IMG/VR virus record: IMGVR_UViG_3300033273_000291
Location: 1-30,878 of that record
Length of the DNA: 30,878 nt
Origin: a virus
Reading direction: 5' to 3' (one strand)
Each line of letters begins with the position of its first letter. Within the stretch, counting starts at the first letter, position 1. The position numbers and the translations under genes were made by a program. The notes under the pieces are model-generated. The model did not search any database. It had not been told where the DNA came from and saw nothing but the letters and a program-made list of their open reading frames with translations. This document shows, piece after piece, positions 15,400 to 26,926 of the stretch.

Positions 15400-15681
15400 A
15401 TGCCTAGAGAAATATCCGAAAATACCGTAGTAGGCTTATCCCTAAAAACCATAGGGGGAATAGCGGCGGCGGCCGGTACTATAGCTATAGGCTGGTTTAG
15501 TTTGCAGGCAGATATAGCAGAAGCCAAAGAGTTGCCCGTACCGGTTATTAGCCGTACCGAATACGAGTTAAAAGACGAGCTTATTCGTGAGACCATTATG
15601 AATACGCAAAGCGATGTAGAGGATATTAAGAAACAGCTTAATAAAATAGAAGACCGTCTCTTTGAGGTAAACAGCAAATAA
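15400..15681 (+). CDS. Membrane-anchored coiled-coil protein (93 aa)
   Basis: Start ATG at 15400 is chosen because it immediately follows the previous stop (15396-15398) and leaves the N-terminus MPREISENTVVGLSLKTIGG; an in-frame ATG at 15373 would overlap that gene by 26 nt. A hydrophobic helix (about residues 14-32, LKTIGGIAAAAGTIAIGWF) is followed by a heptad-like charged region ending IKKQLNKIEDRLFEVNSK. A signal-anchor topology with a coiled coil facing the periplasm or cytoplasm is likely. It opens the envelope cassette; holin or spanin-partner roles are possible but unproven. Confidence 0.75.
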   Translation: MPREISENTVVGLSLKTIGGIAAAAGTIAIGWFSLQADIAEAKELPVPVISRTEYELKDELIRETIMNTQSDVEDIKKQLNKIEDRLFEVNSK

Positions 15682-15682
15682 T

Positions 15683-16039
15683 ATGAAACCTTTACTACTA
15701 AGCGCTTTTTTATTGTACGCAGCAACTTACAGCGACACCCCTACTAAGAAGGTATGGCTAGAGGGCATAGCGGTAGTGCAATATAACGCGGAGTTTAACA
15801 AGAGTAACAGCGTGCAGAACCTTGCTAAGGTTTCGGACGCTAGAATTTTTAACGCTTGGATAGATAAAAACCCCGAGCTTAAAGAGTTTGGCCGTATTAA
15901 ATCCGTGCCTACTGTAGTATTATATAAGGACGGGGAAGAGGTCCGAAGGTGGGAAGCCGGGCTATCTATGAAGCTCGAGGTTAGTTATAGAGAGGTCCAG
16001 CAATATGTAGATAAATTAACCGGAGCCAATAAATTTTAA
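15683..16039 (+). CDS. Exported thioredoxin-fold protein lacking cysteines
   Basis: 118 aa with a short signal-like N-terminus (MKPLLLSAFLLYAATYS). The rest follows the thioredoxin plan: a strand (GIAVVQYNAEF) where WCxxC should follow, a helix, then IKSVPTVVLYKDGEEVRRW, which contains the cis-proline loop (SVPT) and the YKDGEEV hairpin. There is no cysteine anywhere in the protein, so it cannot be an oxidoreductase; a binding or scaffold role is more likely. It starts 1 nt after the preceding gene and ends 1 nt before the barrel gene. The fold call is by motif pattern. Confidence 0.75.
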   Translation: MKPLLLSAFLLYAATYSDTPTKKVWLEGIAVVQYNAEFNKSNSVQNLAKVSDARIFNAWIDKNPELKEFGRIKSVPTVVLYKDGEEVRRWEAGLSMKLEVSYREVQQYVDKLTGANKF

Positions 16040-16040
16040 G

Positions 16041-17123
16041 ATGCGAACCTTATACCTAGTTACCTTTTTTTTATTTACAAATGCTTTAACAGCTCAAAAC
16101 GCCGTAAAGAAATTCTTTAAGTATTCTACTATATATACGAGCGCCTACGCTTCTAACCCTATGTACGCGGAGGAGTTCTGGTATACAACCCAAGCTGGGG
16201 ACCTATACAACTATACAGAAGAGTACCCTTTTGATTATACCGCTACTATAGGTATACGCAAGGTAGCTCGTTATAAATACGAGAACCGACAAAATAGATT
16301 TTACGACGGCCAGCGAGAGGCCACGACCTCTTTAAGTGCTACGGTGGGAGCTGTTAAGGGCTTTGAGTATTTGGCCCAATATGATCTAGGAAGGCAGCAA
16401 GGTAGAGGGTATAATAACCAGCGTTATTTTTTACGCTACCTAACCAATAACTTTATATTTAAAGGGGAGTACCAGCGCCAAGGTCTAGCACGCTTAAACT
16501 ATACGCAAGTAGAAAGTAGGCTAAGACTACACATAGGGGAGCTAGACTTTTCGGCGGGTATAGCCGGAAGGTTGCACGAGCCTTACGGCTATAACCCTAT
16601 AGAGGATTACCTGGAGCACAGCCCTTGGTGGGACCTAGTGCGTAAGATGGGTTACGAGGATTTTTACTACGGTATAGACTACGATAATGATGACGAGCTG
16701 GATAGCTTCGACTGGTACTGGCTCGATCCTAACGGAGAAAAGGTAGCAGATACAGACGAGGACTTTAGAAGGTATATCTACCCCGGAATTATAAACGAGT
16801 TCAATAGGTTGAGTATAGACAGCGTAGGGGTAATGCAGTCCTTATCTGCTGTTCTGGGTATAGACTATTACCACTACTCCGATAATTTTTGGCTGCACAG
16901 CTGGTTTAATGTGCTGCCCTACCACATACATATAGGCGATAAGGAGGAGTTTTCTTACCAGAATTATGTAGACGGTAACCAATGGATAGACCACAGCGGA
17001 GGGTTAGTATTTGGCTGGAAGCTTGGGGCGAGCTGGGGCATATTTTTAGAGAGTGAATATATGCGCTATTGGGATAAAAATATTTATAACTTTCGGCTCG
17101 GTCTTAACTACCAATTTAGGTAA
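16041..17123 (+). CDS. Predicted outer-membrane beta-barrel protein
   Basis: 360 aa. A signal peptide (MRTLYLVTFFLFTNALTAQN, cleavage probably after TAQ) is followed by many short alternating, aromatic-rich strands (ATTSLSATVGAVKGFEYLAQ; YFLRYLTNNFIFKGEYQRQG; LRLHIGELDFSAGIAGRL) and acidic loops (YDNDDELDSFDWYW near 225). It ends on an amphipathic strand (NIYNFRLGLNYQFR) with a penultimate Phe, like the C-terminal beta-signal of outer-membrane barrels. It sits between the thioredoxin-like and holin genes. Possible roles are receptor masking, superinfection exclusion or outer-membrane weakening at lysis. A virion role is less likely because of the signal peptide. Family not recognised. Confidence 0.7.
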   Translation: MRTLYLVTFFLFTNALTAQNAVKKFFKYSTIYTSAYASNPMYAEEFWYTTQAGDLYNYTEEYPFDYTATIGIRKVARYKYENRQNRFYDGQREATTSLSATVGAVKGFEYLAQYDLGRQQGRGYNNQRYFLRYLTNNFIFKGEYQRQGLARLNYTQVESRLRLHIGELDFSAGIAGRLHEPYGYNPIEDYLEHSPWWDLVRKMGYEDFYYGIDYDNDDELDSFDWYWLDPNGEKVADTDEDFRRYIYPGIINEFNRLSIDSVGVMQSLSAVLGIDYYHYSDNFWLHSWFNVLPYHIHIGDKEEFSYQNYVDGNQWIDHSGGLVFGWKLGASWGIFLESEYMRYWDKNIYNFRLGLNYQFR

Positions 17124-17139
17124 ATACTAACTTAGGTAT

Positions 17140-17253
17140 ATGAATAAAAATATAGAGGACAGCTTTAACGATTTTGTAAAGGAATTAGAACAAGCCCAGC
17201 AGCCGGTTTGTAATGTAGAAAACCCAGAGGACTGCACTTCGTGCGGAAGCTAA
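17140..17253 (+). CDS. Tiny cysteine-containing protein (37 aa)
   Basis: ATG at 17140, stop TAA at 17251-17253. The acidic helix MNKNIEDSFNDFVKELEQAQ is followed by CNVENPEDCTSCGS with three cysteines at the C-terminus. It lies in the gap between the barrel and holin genes with an acceptable start and phage-like codons. Metal binding or a disulfide is conceivable. Function unknown and existence moderately supported. Confidence 0.5.
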   Translation: MNKNIEDSFNDFVKELEQAQQPVCNVENPEDCTSCGS

Positions 17254-17302
17254 ATAGCTTCCTAAACGATAGCTGCGGCAGTAAAAATTTAAAATTAAAA
17301 TT

Positions 17303-17473
17303 ATGTTCGATAGAGTATTTAACAACTGGAAGACTAGCGTACTAGGCGCTTTGCTTATGTGCGCTAGCTTTGCTTTTGTGTTATGGGAAAAGGCTACGCT
17401 AACGGAGGCGGGAGCCTTTCTAGGTGTGGCCTTTACCCTTTTCTTTGTAAAGGATCCGAAACGCGTTAAGTAA
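17303..17473 (+). CDS. Holin-like protein with two membrane helices (56 aa)
   Basis: ATG at 17303, stop TAA at 17471-17473. A short charged N-terminus (MFDRVFNNWKTS) precedes a first hydrophobic helix (VLGALLMCASFAFVLW), a turn (EKATLTEAG) and a second (AFLGVAFTLFFV) with the basic tail KDPKRVK. This two-helix design is common for small holins in Bacteroidota phages. It would make membrane lesions that time lysis. The lipoprotein with spanin topology lies 195 nt downstream, whereas the endolysin is far away at 26441. The stop overlaps the next ATG (TAATG). Confidence 0.72.
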   Translation: MFDRVFNNWKTSVLGALLMCASFAFVLWEKATLTEAGAFLGVAFTLFFVKDPKRVK

Positions 17474-17676
17474 TGCAAATAGAGGCCGGAACCCTGCACC
17501 TCGAGCACAAGGGCGTAGAGGTAGAGGCTCCAATAGTTTGGGATATTGAGCAGGGCGGCCCTATTTACTTAATAAAGGAGGGCAAAATATTTGCCTCCCT
17601 ATCTCCAGAGGAGCTTAAGGCTATTTATGTGCTGTACCGAGATTTAGAATTAAAGGGAAAGGTAGAAGATGTATAA
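17473..17676 (+). CDS. Hypothetical protein between holin and spanin (67 aa)
   Basis: MQIEAGTLHLEHKGVEVEAP opens a beta-rich acidic protein that ends in a helix (SPEELKAIYVLYRDLELKGK). No export signal or motif. Its start overlaps the holin stop and its end overlaps the spanin start by 8 nt, so it is translated with the lysis genes. Function unknown. Confidence 0.7.
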   Translation: MQIEAGTLHLEHKGVEVEAPIVWDIEQGGPIYLIKEGKIFASLSPEELKAIYVLYRDLELKGKVEDV

Positions 17677-18079
17677 ACTATTTACAGCGCGTTTAAGCGC
17701 ATATCTTTTGCTCGGTGGTATGTTACCCTTACTTACGGGGTGTAAAGCCATTAGAAACGCTCTAACACCCCTTAAAACGGAAGTAACGCTAACAGATACT
17801 ATCTACGTCGAAGAGGTAAAAGTAGATACTGTAGCTATTACCCTCCCCGTAGATACCGTCGTAATTCAGACTGAGCGCGTGAGCGCCAAGGTTATACGAT
17901 CGTTTGATACTATCGCCGTAGAGGTGGAGTGTAAAGCCGATACGGTAGTAGTTACCAATACGGTAACTCTTCCCACTAAAGTTAAGACCGTTACCAGAGT
18001 GCCTTGGTGGTTTAAGCCAGCTGTAGCTATTGGCGCTTTACTTATTGGGTTAGCTTTATTTAGAATACTAGTAAAATAA
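17669..18079 (+). CDS. Putative unimolecular spanin (u-spanin) lipoprotein
   Basis: 136 aa. The N-terminus is a lipoprotein signal with lipobox LTGC (Cys25), followed by Lys rather than Asp, which favours outer-membrane sorting. The periplasmic part (about 26-110) is rich in alternating Thr/Val strands (TVAITLPVDTVVIQTERV). Residues about 112-135 (WWFKPAVAIGALLIGLALF) form a C-terminal transmembrane helix with a short basic end. A single polypeptide tethered to both outer and inner membranes is the definition of a u-spanin, as known for phage T1 gp11, which is about the same length. It would fuse the two membranes in the last lysis step. A strong terminator follows directly. Confidence 0.8.
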   Translation: MYKLFTARLSAYLLLGGMLPLLTGCKAIRNALTPLKTEVTLTDTIYVEEVKVDTVAITLPVDTVVIQTERVSAKVIRSFDTIAVEVECKADTVVVTNTVTLPTKVKTVTRVPWWFKPAVAIGALLIGLALFRILVK

Positions 18080-18080
18080 A

Positions 18081-18107
18081 AAAGCCCCGCTAGGGGCTTT
18101 CTCTTTA
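18081..18107. terminator. Bidirectional intrinsic terminator
   Basis: AAAGCCCC (18081-18088), loop GCTA, GGGGCTTT (18093-18100), followed by TTTCTCTTT on the plus strand. On the minus strand the same stem is followed by TTTTTTATTTT. It separates the late operon, ending at 18079, from the convergent gene ending at 18105 and can stop transcription from both sides. Confidence 0.92.
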
Positions 18108-18854: not shown

Positions 18855-18931
18855 GGGGCGCGTGAGCGCATAATAGTAAATTTTTTTTTGCTGCGGAGCC
18901 CAGTATTTATAAGGGCTGGGGCGCGTGAGCG
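18855..18931. repeat. 14-bp direct repeat pair
   Basis: GGGGCGCGTGAGCG occurs at 18855-18868 and again at 18918-18931, 63 bp apart, each followed by a similar A/T tail (AtAAtAgTAAA and AAAATAAATGTAAA) and a T run. The GC-rich core stands out from its AT-rich surroundings just upstream of the early promoter. A protein-binding direct repeat or iteron is plausible. Confidence 0.8.
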
Positions 18932-18962
18932 AAAATAAATGTAAACTTTTTTGCTTTTTTAT

Positions 18963-19315: not shown

Positions 19316-20569
19316 ATGGCTAAAACGAAAAAAATAACGCAGCTTGATTTATTTAGCGGTATAGGTGGCTTTCACCTGGGCTTTGAGAAAGCTGGCTATA
19401 AAGTAAAGAGTTACTTTAGCGAGATAGACAAACACGCTATAGCAGTATATAAACATCAATTTAAAAACAGTACTTATGCCGGTTCAGTTATCGATATTAG
19501 AGGAAACGAATTACCAAGAATCGACCTTATCACTTTCGGAAGCCCTTGTCAAGATTTTAGCGTTGCTGGAAAGCGTAAAGGGATGGGAGGAGAGCGAAGC
19601 TCCCTTATCCTTGAAGCCATTAGGCTTATCGATGAATGCCGACCAAGTGTATTTATCTGGGAAAATGTTAAAGGAACTTTCTCCTCAAATAATGGGGCCG
19701 ACTTTGCGGCAATCCTGCAAGCGTTTACCAACCTTGGGGGCTATAGACTTGAATGGCAACTGCTTAATACAAGCTGGGTACTACCCCAAAATAGAGAGCG
19801 GATATACCTTGTCGGATATTCTACAACACCCCGAAGAGATTGGAGAGGAGTTTTTCCTATCGGAGAAGACAATAGAGAGAATGATGGAATACAGCGACAA
19901 GTCAGTAAAACCCTTACTTGCCGGTACACTGCAGACAGCAACGGGTCATTCCTTATTACAAATCAACAGTCTGCGGAAAGATTCAAAATAAAGAGCGCCA
20001 CTAAACAAGGCTACGAGGTAGCAGAAGAAGGGGATAGGATTAACCTATCTAATGCTAACAGCGAGACTCGTAGAGGCAGAGTAGGTAAAGGTAAAGCGAA
20101 CACGCTGGAGACTTCTTGCAATCAAGCGGTAGTGCAGCCCACTTTAATAGAACATAGAGGCCATAAGAATAAAGCCCCAAAGGTTATAAAAAATGGTAAG
20201 GTGCCAACTTTGAGAAGCGAAAGCCACGGCCACGAAACAAAGATAGTGCAGCCGGTACAAATAGGGCAAACCTCTAATTCCTATGCGGCTCAAAATGGCA
20301 CTCTAATAGGTAAAGAGGGGCAGGATGCCTTTACTATAAGAAGCTCGAATCCTAACGGAGTGTTAGACCAAAGTTATCGAATAAGAAGATTAACCCCTAT
20401 TGAGTGCGAACGCTTACAAGGCTTCCCAGACAACCACACCGAGTACGGCAACTATGATGGTGAGGTTAAGAAGGTGAGCAATACCCAACGCTATAAGCAA
20501 TGTGGCAACGCAGTTACGGTAGATATCGTAGCTTCAATCGCAGAAAAAATTAAGCCATTATTTAAATAG
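19316..20569 (+). CDS. C5 cytosine DNA methyltransferase (Dcm type)
   Basis: 417 aa with the ordered motifs of C5 methyltransferases: motif I DLFSGIGGF (11-19), motif IV SPCQDFSVAGKRKGMGGERS with catalytic Cys near 79, motif VI ENVKG, motif VIII LPQNRERIYLVGY and motif X YKQCGNAVTVDIV at the C-terminus. The target-recognition region lies at about 170-350 (NLSNANSETRRGRVGKGKA; RRLTPIECERLQGFPDNH). It transfers methyl from SAM to cytosine C5, probably masking restriction sites. No cognate restriction enzyme is adjacent, so it is an orphan enzyme. Codon use is somewhat less phage-like than its neighbours. A long +1-frame ORF (19476-19991) overlaps it. Confidence 0.95.
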   Translation: MAKTKKITQLDLFSGIGGFHLGFEKAGYKVKSYFSEIDKHAIAVYKHQFKNSTYAGSVIDIRGNELPRIDLITFGSPCQDFSVAGKRKGMGGERSSLILEAIRLIDECRPSVFIWENVKGTFSSNNGADFAAILQAFTNLGGYRLEWQLLNTSWVLPQNRERIYLVGYSTTPRRDWRGVFPIGEDNRENDGIQRQVSKTLTCRYTADSNGSFLITNQQSAERFKIKSATKQGYEVAEEGDRINLSNANSETRRGRVGKGKANTLETSCNQAVVQPTLIEHRGHKNKAPKVIKNGKVPTLRSESHGHETKIVQPVQIGQTSNSYAAQNGTLIGKEGQDAFTIRSSNPNGVLDQSYRIRRLTPIECERLQGFPDNHTEYGNYDGEVKKVSNTQRYKQCGNAVTVDIVASIAEKIKPLFK

Positions 20570-26282: not shown

Positions 26283-26444
26283 ATGTGGATAGAGATAGCT
26301 AGCAATACCTGGGCTGAAGCAAAAGACGAGAAAGACGCCCAGCGTATACGCGAGAAATATAAAAGCTATAAGAAAAAGCAAGGCGATTTAACAAGCCGCC
26401 ACTATATCGTAAACTATATAGAAGAGACAAATTTTATAAAATGA
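26283..26444 (+). CDS. Small basic hypothetical protein (53 aa)
   Basis: ATG at 26283, stop TGA at 26442-26444, overlapping the endolysin ATG (ATGA). MWIEIASNTWAEAKDEKDAQ then RIREKYKSYKKKQGDLTSRH. One helix with a basic patch. Function unknown. Confidence 0.6.
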   Translation: MWIEIASNTWAEAKDEKDAQRIREKYKSYKKKQGDLTSRHYIVNYIEETNFIK

Positions 26445-26926
26445 AACTAAGCGAACATTTAAGCCTAAAGGAGGTAACCTATAGCGCTACAGCTATAAAA
26501 CACGGAATAAATAACGAGCCCGTAATAGGCCAGCTCGAAGTATTAAAGGAAATGGCTAGCACTATCTTTGAGCCTTGCCGGGAGTTTTGCGGTGGTCCTT
26601 TGAAGGTAACCAGCGGCTACCGAGGACCAGAGTTAAATAAACGAATAGGAGGAAGTTTAAGCTCGGACCATTGTATAAGAGACTACGCTACCGCTGCACT
26701 AGATTTAGACTGCGACGTATATAAGAACAGCACGAATGCAGACCTATTCCACTATATAAAAGATAACCTCCCCTTTAAGCAGCTTATTTGGGAGTTCGGA
26801 AACGAAGAGCAGCCTAACTGGGTACACGTTAGCTATAGTATGAATCACAGACTTAATAAAGGAGAAGTACTAATAGCTAAACGATTGGGGAGCCGCACAG
26901 TTTATGAGTATTGGAAGGAGGAATAA
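26441..26926 (+). CDS. M15-type peptidase endolysin
   Basis: 161 aa. LKVTSGYRGPELNKRIGGSL, then SSDHCIRDYATAALDLDC and near the end NWVHVSY, give the zinc set of M15 D-Ala-D-Ala peptidases: His77, Asp88 and the His of WVHVSY (about 132). Four residues appear inserted between the first His and Asp compared with the usual HxxGxAxD. Cuts peptidoglycan cross-links at lysis. It lacks a signal peptide, so it depends on the holin (17303) to reach the wall, yet it is encoded among replication genes 9 kb away. Confidence 0.87.
   Translation: MKLSEHLSLKEVTYSATAIKHGINNEPVIGQLEVLKEMASTIFEPCREFCGGPLKVTSGYRGPELNKRIGGSLSSDHCIRDYATAALDLDCDVYKNSTNADLFHYIKDNLPFKQLIWEFGNEEQPNWVHVSYSMNHRLNKGEVLIAKRLGSRTVYEYWKEE

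Follow-up and report, generated by a model that had tools for sequence, protein, structure and literature searches.

A conserved three-gene envelope module beside lysis genes in uncultured, probably Bacteroidota-infecting phages

Three adjacent genes (hereafter A, B and C), and not the block of seven genes in which they were first noticed, constitute a conserved unit in a large group of uncultured phages that probably infect Bacteroidota. The analysis started from the window (i.e. the whole stretch of DNA under study, a 30,878-base viral fragment from IMG/VR with a tailed-phage gene set), for which a preliminary description had proposed that seven consecutive genes (15400-18079) form an envelope-directed cassette, serving either an expanded lysis system or the remodelling of the host surface. 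The holin-like and u-spanin genes of this block proved to be neighbours that differ from phage to phage; the lysis connection held by context, as lysis enzymes and holins adjoin the module far above shuffled expectations, and surface remodelling gained no positive support. We consider it likely that A-B-C has some role in lysis or in lysis control. That the three products form an envelope-spanning complex, acting together with holin and endolysin on the outer membrane at lysis, is the reading we favour, tentatively and with a little less than even confidence. The way in which Bacteroidota phages open the outer membrane is poorly known, and the module is common in environmental viromes, yet searches of phage records did not turn it up and it belongs to no named family; phages that carry it may possess a means, so far undescribed, of breaking the bacterial envelope or controlling it.

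Along the window, the portal, protease, capsid, connector and tail genes are followed by LamG-type fibre-like proteins, then by the block (seven ORFs, all on the + strand; Table 1), and finally by replication genes and the terminase. A hydrophobicity scan of the 39 window ORFs (a crude scan, the gene calls and signal predictions being likewise simple computations) found exactly five strong N-terminal hydrophobic segments, all of them within the block, which bears out the initial observation that five of its seven genes carry membrane or export signals; the probability of such a concentration arising by chance is about 4e-5 (C(7,5)/C(39,5)), for a block that was chosen post hoc. The related contig L001 holds counterparts of all seven ORFs in the same order (63-89% identity), with dN far below dS for the six larger genes. 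As other viral contigs share the gene order, it is not unique to the window genome, and the terminator said to end the block was recovered as a terminator-like hairpin. An Rfam scan of the window gave no match. Two features further along may be recorded here: a 38-nt direct repeat that begins with GGGGCGCGTGAGCG occurs twice, 63 nt apart, in the gap between structural and replication genes (18855-18955), and the ORF at 19316-20569 carries cytosine-C5 DNA methyltransferase motifs (FSGIGGF, SPCQDFS), as read from the sequence.

Table 1. Features of the block, its terminator and the probable endolysin in the window
Feature	Position	Strand	Description	Database match
Gene A	15400-15681	+	93 aa; N-terminal TM segment and predicted periplasmic coiled coil	
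Gene B	15683-16039	+	118 aa; exported thioredoxin fold	
Gene C	16041-17123	+	360 aa; signal peptide and modelled 12-strand outer-membrane barrel	
Small ORF	17140-17253	+	37 aa; cysteine-rich end; counterpart in L001; neighbour of the module	
Holin-like ORF	17303-17473	+	56 aa; holin-like only in its topology (two short hydrophobic segments)	
Soluble protein	17473-17676	+	67 aa; conserved in L001	
u-spanin candidate	17669-18079	+	lipobox LLTGC and C-terminal TM segment	
Hairpin	18081-18100	read on both strands	terminator-like; closes the block	
Probable endolysin	26441-26926	+	M15 peptidase type	phrog_894, E 7e-25

The first search looked among viral contigs for relatives of gene C, the barrel. 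In the contigs L002 and L003, A, B and C still stand together although most of the flanking genes have no relation to those of the window; near the module, essentially A-B-C alone matches the window. Wider searches with C and A yielded 163 sequences (duplicates and the window included), in which ORF profile searches detected C in 150, A in 157 and B in 151; whichever gene served as the query, the three co-occur in nearly all of the uncultured viral loci retrieved. A broader C profile uncovered at least 589 relatives of C in environmental viromes (a search with A gave at least 535 relatives of A), and all three genes are present in 70 of the 76 new loci that the C profile brought in; in most of the remaining six, C lies where the contig or the retrieved stretch stops. 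A-B-C and C-A-B are the usual orders; in some loci an insertion of 0.1-1.7 kb separates C from A. An overlap of A and B by four bases is the commonest arrangement. A tree of 91 C proteins implies six changes of gene order; counted on well-supported branches, there are at least three (A-B-C label) or at least four (C-A-B label). Linkage that outlasts at least three to four rearrangements, together with the overlap of A and B, is the pattern of a functional unit. Correlations between distance matrices were slightly higher within A-B-C (0.38-0.53) than with most neighbours (0.11-0.48), a difference that does not settle the matter, and no fusions among the three genes occur in the loci examined.

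The locus counts overstate independence, since the loci are related and most of the dereplicated ones chain into one group by shared neighbouring genes. A-B pairs without C also exist; as the loci are fragments, the missing C may in some cases reflect absent sequence, L098 aside, in which a 60-kb contig shows no C. Second copies of gene A adjoin or neighbour the module in five loci (L112, L128, L105, L110 and L114), the first copy in L112 matching phrog_20984 (E 1e-11). A tblastn search of 50,697 phage records with representatives of A, B and C gave no credible match, and no homologues of C were found in cellular genomes. The cellular-genome search with A returned three matches, at least two of them on virus-like contigs binned with Bacteroidetes MAGs; from these contigs and the style of the signal peptides we reason that the host is probably a member of the Bacteroidota.

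Gene A had been described as an anchored coiled coil, in agreement with the single TM segment found in 155 of 161 relatives and with a heptad-like C terminus (the periplasmic coiled coil itself being predicted only). Charge bias suggests an N-in topology, with about 55 residues outside the membrane and a conserved juxtamembrane motif in which E54 and D59 are invariant. Family searches produced weak matches to PHROGs of unknown function. An N-terminal TM segment followed by a predicted periplasmic coiled coil is what characterises an i-spanin; i-spanins are usually longer than gene A.

The second gene had been taken for an exported thioredoxin-like protein, of which the fold stands and the catalytic cysteines do not. 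The thioredoxin fold was recovered by profile comparison with PDB sequences (best E 1e-11), by a Pfam match in 45 of 66 members and by comparison of models (TM about 0.55). With thioredoxins the family shares this fold and an invariant cis-proline (P76); it differs from them in being exported (N-terminal hydrophobic segment typical of export in 147/150 proteins), in lacking CxxC, in carrying a conserved N-x-x-N at the cysteine positions (N39 and N42, with N in 78 and 84 of 90 aligned sequences, respectively) and in ending mostly with an aromatic residue (F, Y or W in 128/150). An active thioredoxin was rejected as an identity for gene B, none of the 150 relatives having CxxC; a general lipobox was not found either. 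Judged from these sequence features the protein is exported and redox-dead, and the combination of a fold without CxxC, an export segment and a mostly aromatic last residue indicates that it is probably a binding module.

For gene C, the proposal of an outer-membrane barrel is backed by an AlphaFold2 model (pLDDT 85.5), in which a closed antiparallel barrel of 12 strands (counted from the assigned strands) follows the signal peptide; export signals were present in 137 of 148 family members. Foldseek comparison of the model with the PDB retrieved generic barrels only (TM about 0.3 or less), and one viral model, A0A516LKJ4, matched end to end (TM 0.78). No sequence relation to solved barrels in the PDB was found, and the candidate identity of a known barrel enzyme or porin was rejected on both grounds.

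Lysis-type genes lie within 3 kb of the module in 47 of the 68 dereplicated loci that have at least 3 kb on both sides (DUF5675 is counted in, as is a two-segment membrane family that lacks database support), and 25 of these 47 have both an enzyme and a holin-like gene; the other 21 have no recognised lysis gene within that distance. When only families supported by Pfam or PHROGs are counted (M15 endolysin, Amidase_2 and two holin families), 70 of 86 endolysin or holin genes, spread over 62 loci, are found within 1 kb of the module, against an expectation of 30.7 (sd 4.1, maximum 45) from 5000 within-locus shuffles. For control genes the same procedure gave 24 observed versus 18.8 expected for small basic genes, 5 versus 12.4 for ribonucleotide reductase and 14 versus 8.5 for LamG fibres. 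The probable endolysin of the window lies 8 kb from the module, next to which stand the holin-like and u-spanin genes; relatives of this endolysin adjoin the module in other loci. The 56-aa ORF keeps the topology for which it had been called holin-like, and its family searches gave nothing significant, the sole hit being LrgA (E 0.054), with PHROG holins absent from the results.

The last gene of the block bears both the lipobox and the C-terminal TM segment, as first described, a build like that of unimolecular spanins of the T1 gp11 type, and its family has a conserved periplasmic cysteine (...VECKADT...) that is kept in other members. We regard it as a candidate u-spanin of a variant family, differing in this cysteine from the 58 u-spanins of an earlier survey, none of which has a periplasmic one (an observed trait and not a strict definition; PMC6139136). 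A u-spanin-like protein is located within 5 kb of the module in 7 of 102 dereplicated loci, and a crude scan detected no lipoprotein candidate within this distance in 78 of the 102. A-B-C and a candidate u-spanin occur together in the window, L001 and L091-L096, and holin-like or lipoprotein genes are occasionally found inside the module. The 37-aa ORF is related to an ORF elsewhere in L003. In four loci (L068, L074, L077 and L082) the interval from C to A encodes a secreted protein of about 220-230 aa; these proteins are rich in DT-type repeats and resemble the periplasmic part of this u-spanin family.

We reason that A may sit in the inner membrane with its coiled coil extending into the periplasm, that B, as a redox-dead thioredoxin fold, may serve as a protein-binding adaptor, and that C may form a barrel in the outer membrane. 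The endolysin would open the wall first; the bridge formed by A, B and C would then attack the outer membrane, by destabilising it, fusing it with the inner membrane or opening it. Such an assembly would be spanin-like, with a barrel instead of a lipoprotein as its outer-membrane part. Known spanins consist either of an inner-membrane coiled-coil protein and an outer-membrane lipoprotein or of one lipoprotein with a C-terminal TM segment (PMC6139136). Two-component spanins (lambda Rz/Rz1) resemble A-B-C in having an inner-membrane protein with an N-terminal TM segment and a periplasmic coiled coil (predicted in A), in the adjacent or overlapping genes within a lysis region and in parts addressed to both membranes, but A-B-C has a barrel and an exported thioredoxin fold in place of the lipoprotein o-spanin. 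Lacking this lipoprotein partner, it is not classed as a two-component spanin, though it may work like one; unlike the unimolecular type, it has neither lipobox nor C-terminal TM segment, and it showed no match to spanin-labelled families. A 2025 survey of viral lytic proteins reported, for Bacteroidetes phages, no spanins other than unimolecular ones (PMC12596118), and flavobacterial phage isolates have a holin, an endolysin and sometimes a u-spanin (PMC8776804). No report of the A-B-C triad was found in the open-licence literature searched.

The scarcity of u-spanin-like proteins near the module leaves room for another outer-membrane factor. A stronger version of the preferred reading, in which A-B-C is a lipoprotein-free, three-part machine for outer-membrane disruption that works in place of or alongside spanins throughout this large phage group, is possible but more doubtful. 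Since the window possesses both A-B-C and a u-spanin candidate, the module may assist the u-spanin and not replace it; by the same token the outer-membrane step may already be covered there, which speaks against the favoured reading. So do the 21 loci without a recognised lysis gene within 3 kb, the A-B pairs without C, the shortness of gene A for an i-spanin and the enrichment of a virion-associated gene beside the module (see below). Were the module the outer-membrane step, it would define a principle of lysis built on a barrel and could serve to mark lysis cassettes in the genomes of uncultured viruses; failing that, it would still be a presumed envelope complex with tight gene linkage and no name.

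The alternative that survives best, which we nonetheless hold to be unlikely, is that the module times lysis: C and B would act as sensors of the envelope's condition or of a superinfecting phage and would, via A, restrain or trigger the holin, in a manner functionally like the lysis inhibition of T4. It would account for the lysis genes next to the module and for the possible coexistence of A-B-C with a u-spanin, a redox-dead binding fold would suit signalling, and one relative of gene A weakly matches a holin family; against it, no antiholin family was matched.

Phage-encoded outer-membrane barrels are known (Lom-like proteins, phage porins), and some alter the host surface. Gene C resembles them as a phage gene for a (modelled) outer-membrane barrel, but it is linked both to its two partner genes and to genes for lysis. 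It could accordingly be supposed that C occupies or masks the outer membrane, excluding superinfecting phages or changing the surface, and that A and B help to assemble or anchor it. This we judge quite unlikely. Gene C is about 80% identical between phages with unrelated neighbouring genes, and, on the topology of the model, conservation is no lower in its periplasmic turns than in its outer loops (mean majority-residue frequency 0.55 vs 0.47), the opposite of what a surface arms race would leave; both observations argue mildly against a surface-receptor role, and surface exclusion leaves the lysis linkage unexplained.

A large virion-associated gene is also enriched beside the module, often directly upstream (26 of 30 within 1 kb vs 15.2 in shuffles), so that the module typically lies between structural and lysis genes. 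This arrangement, and the tail-fibre-like genes that precede the block in the window, would fit a virion-linked role in which the three genes are expressed along with the structural ones and serve particle assembly, adsorption or DNA entry, which we find improbable given that the export signals of B and C and the TM segment of nearly all A proteins would direct the products to the envelope and not to particles assembled in the cytoplasm. That the three are unrelated envelope genes, kept together through shared phage ancestry only, draws on the chaining of most loci into one group (the backgrounds are not fully independent) and is very improbable in view of the linkage through repeated order changes, the nearly exclusive match of A-B-C near the module in L002 and L003 and carrier contigs ranging up to 181 kb.

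Two further kinds of protein recur around the module. In 15 loci (L060, L069, L071, L081 and others) a gene near it encodes a secreted protein of about 750 aa whose repeats contain cysteine, and about 40 loci (e.g., L119, 2-2734) have a gene for a very large protein (median length about 2,200 aa) directly upstream, one such protein giving a weak match to polynucleotide kinase.
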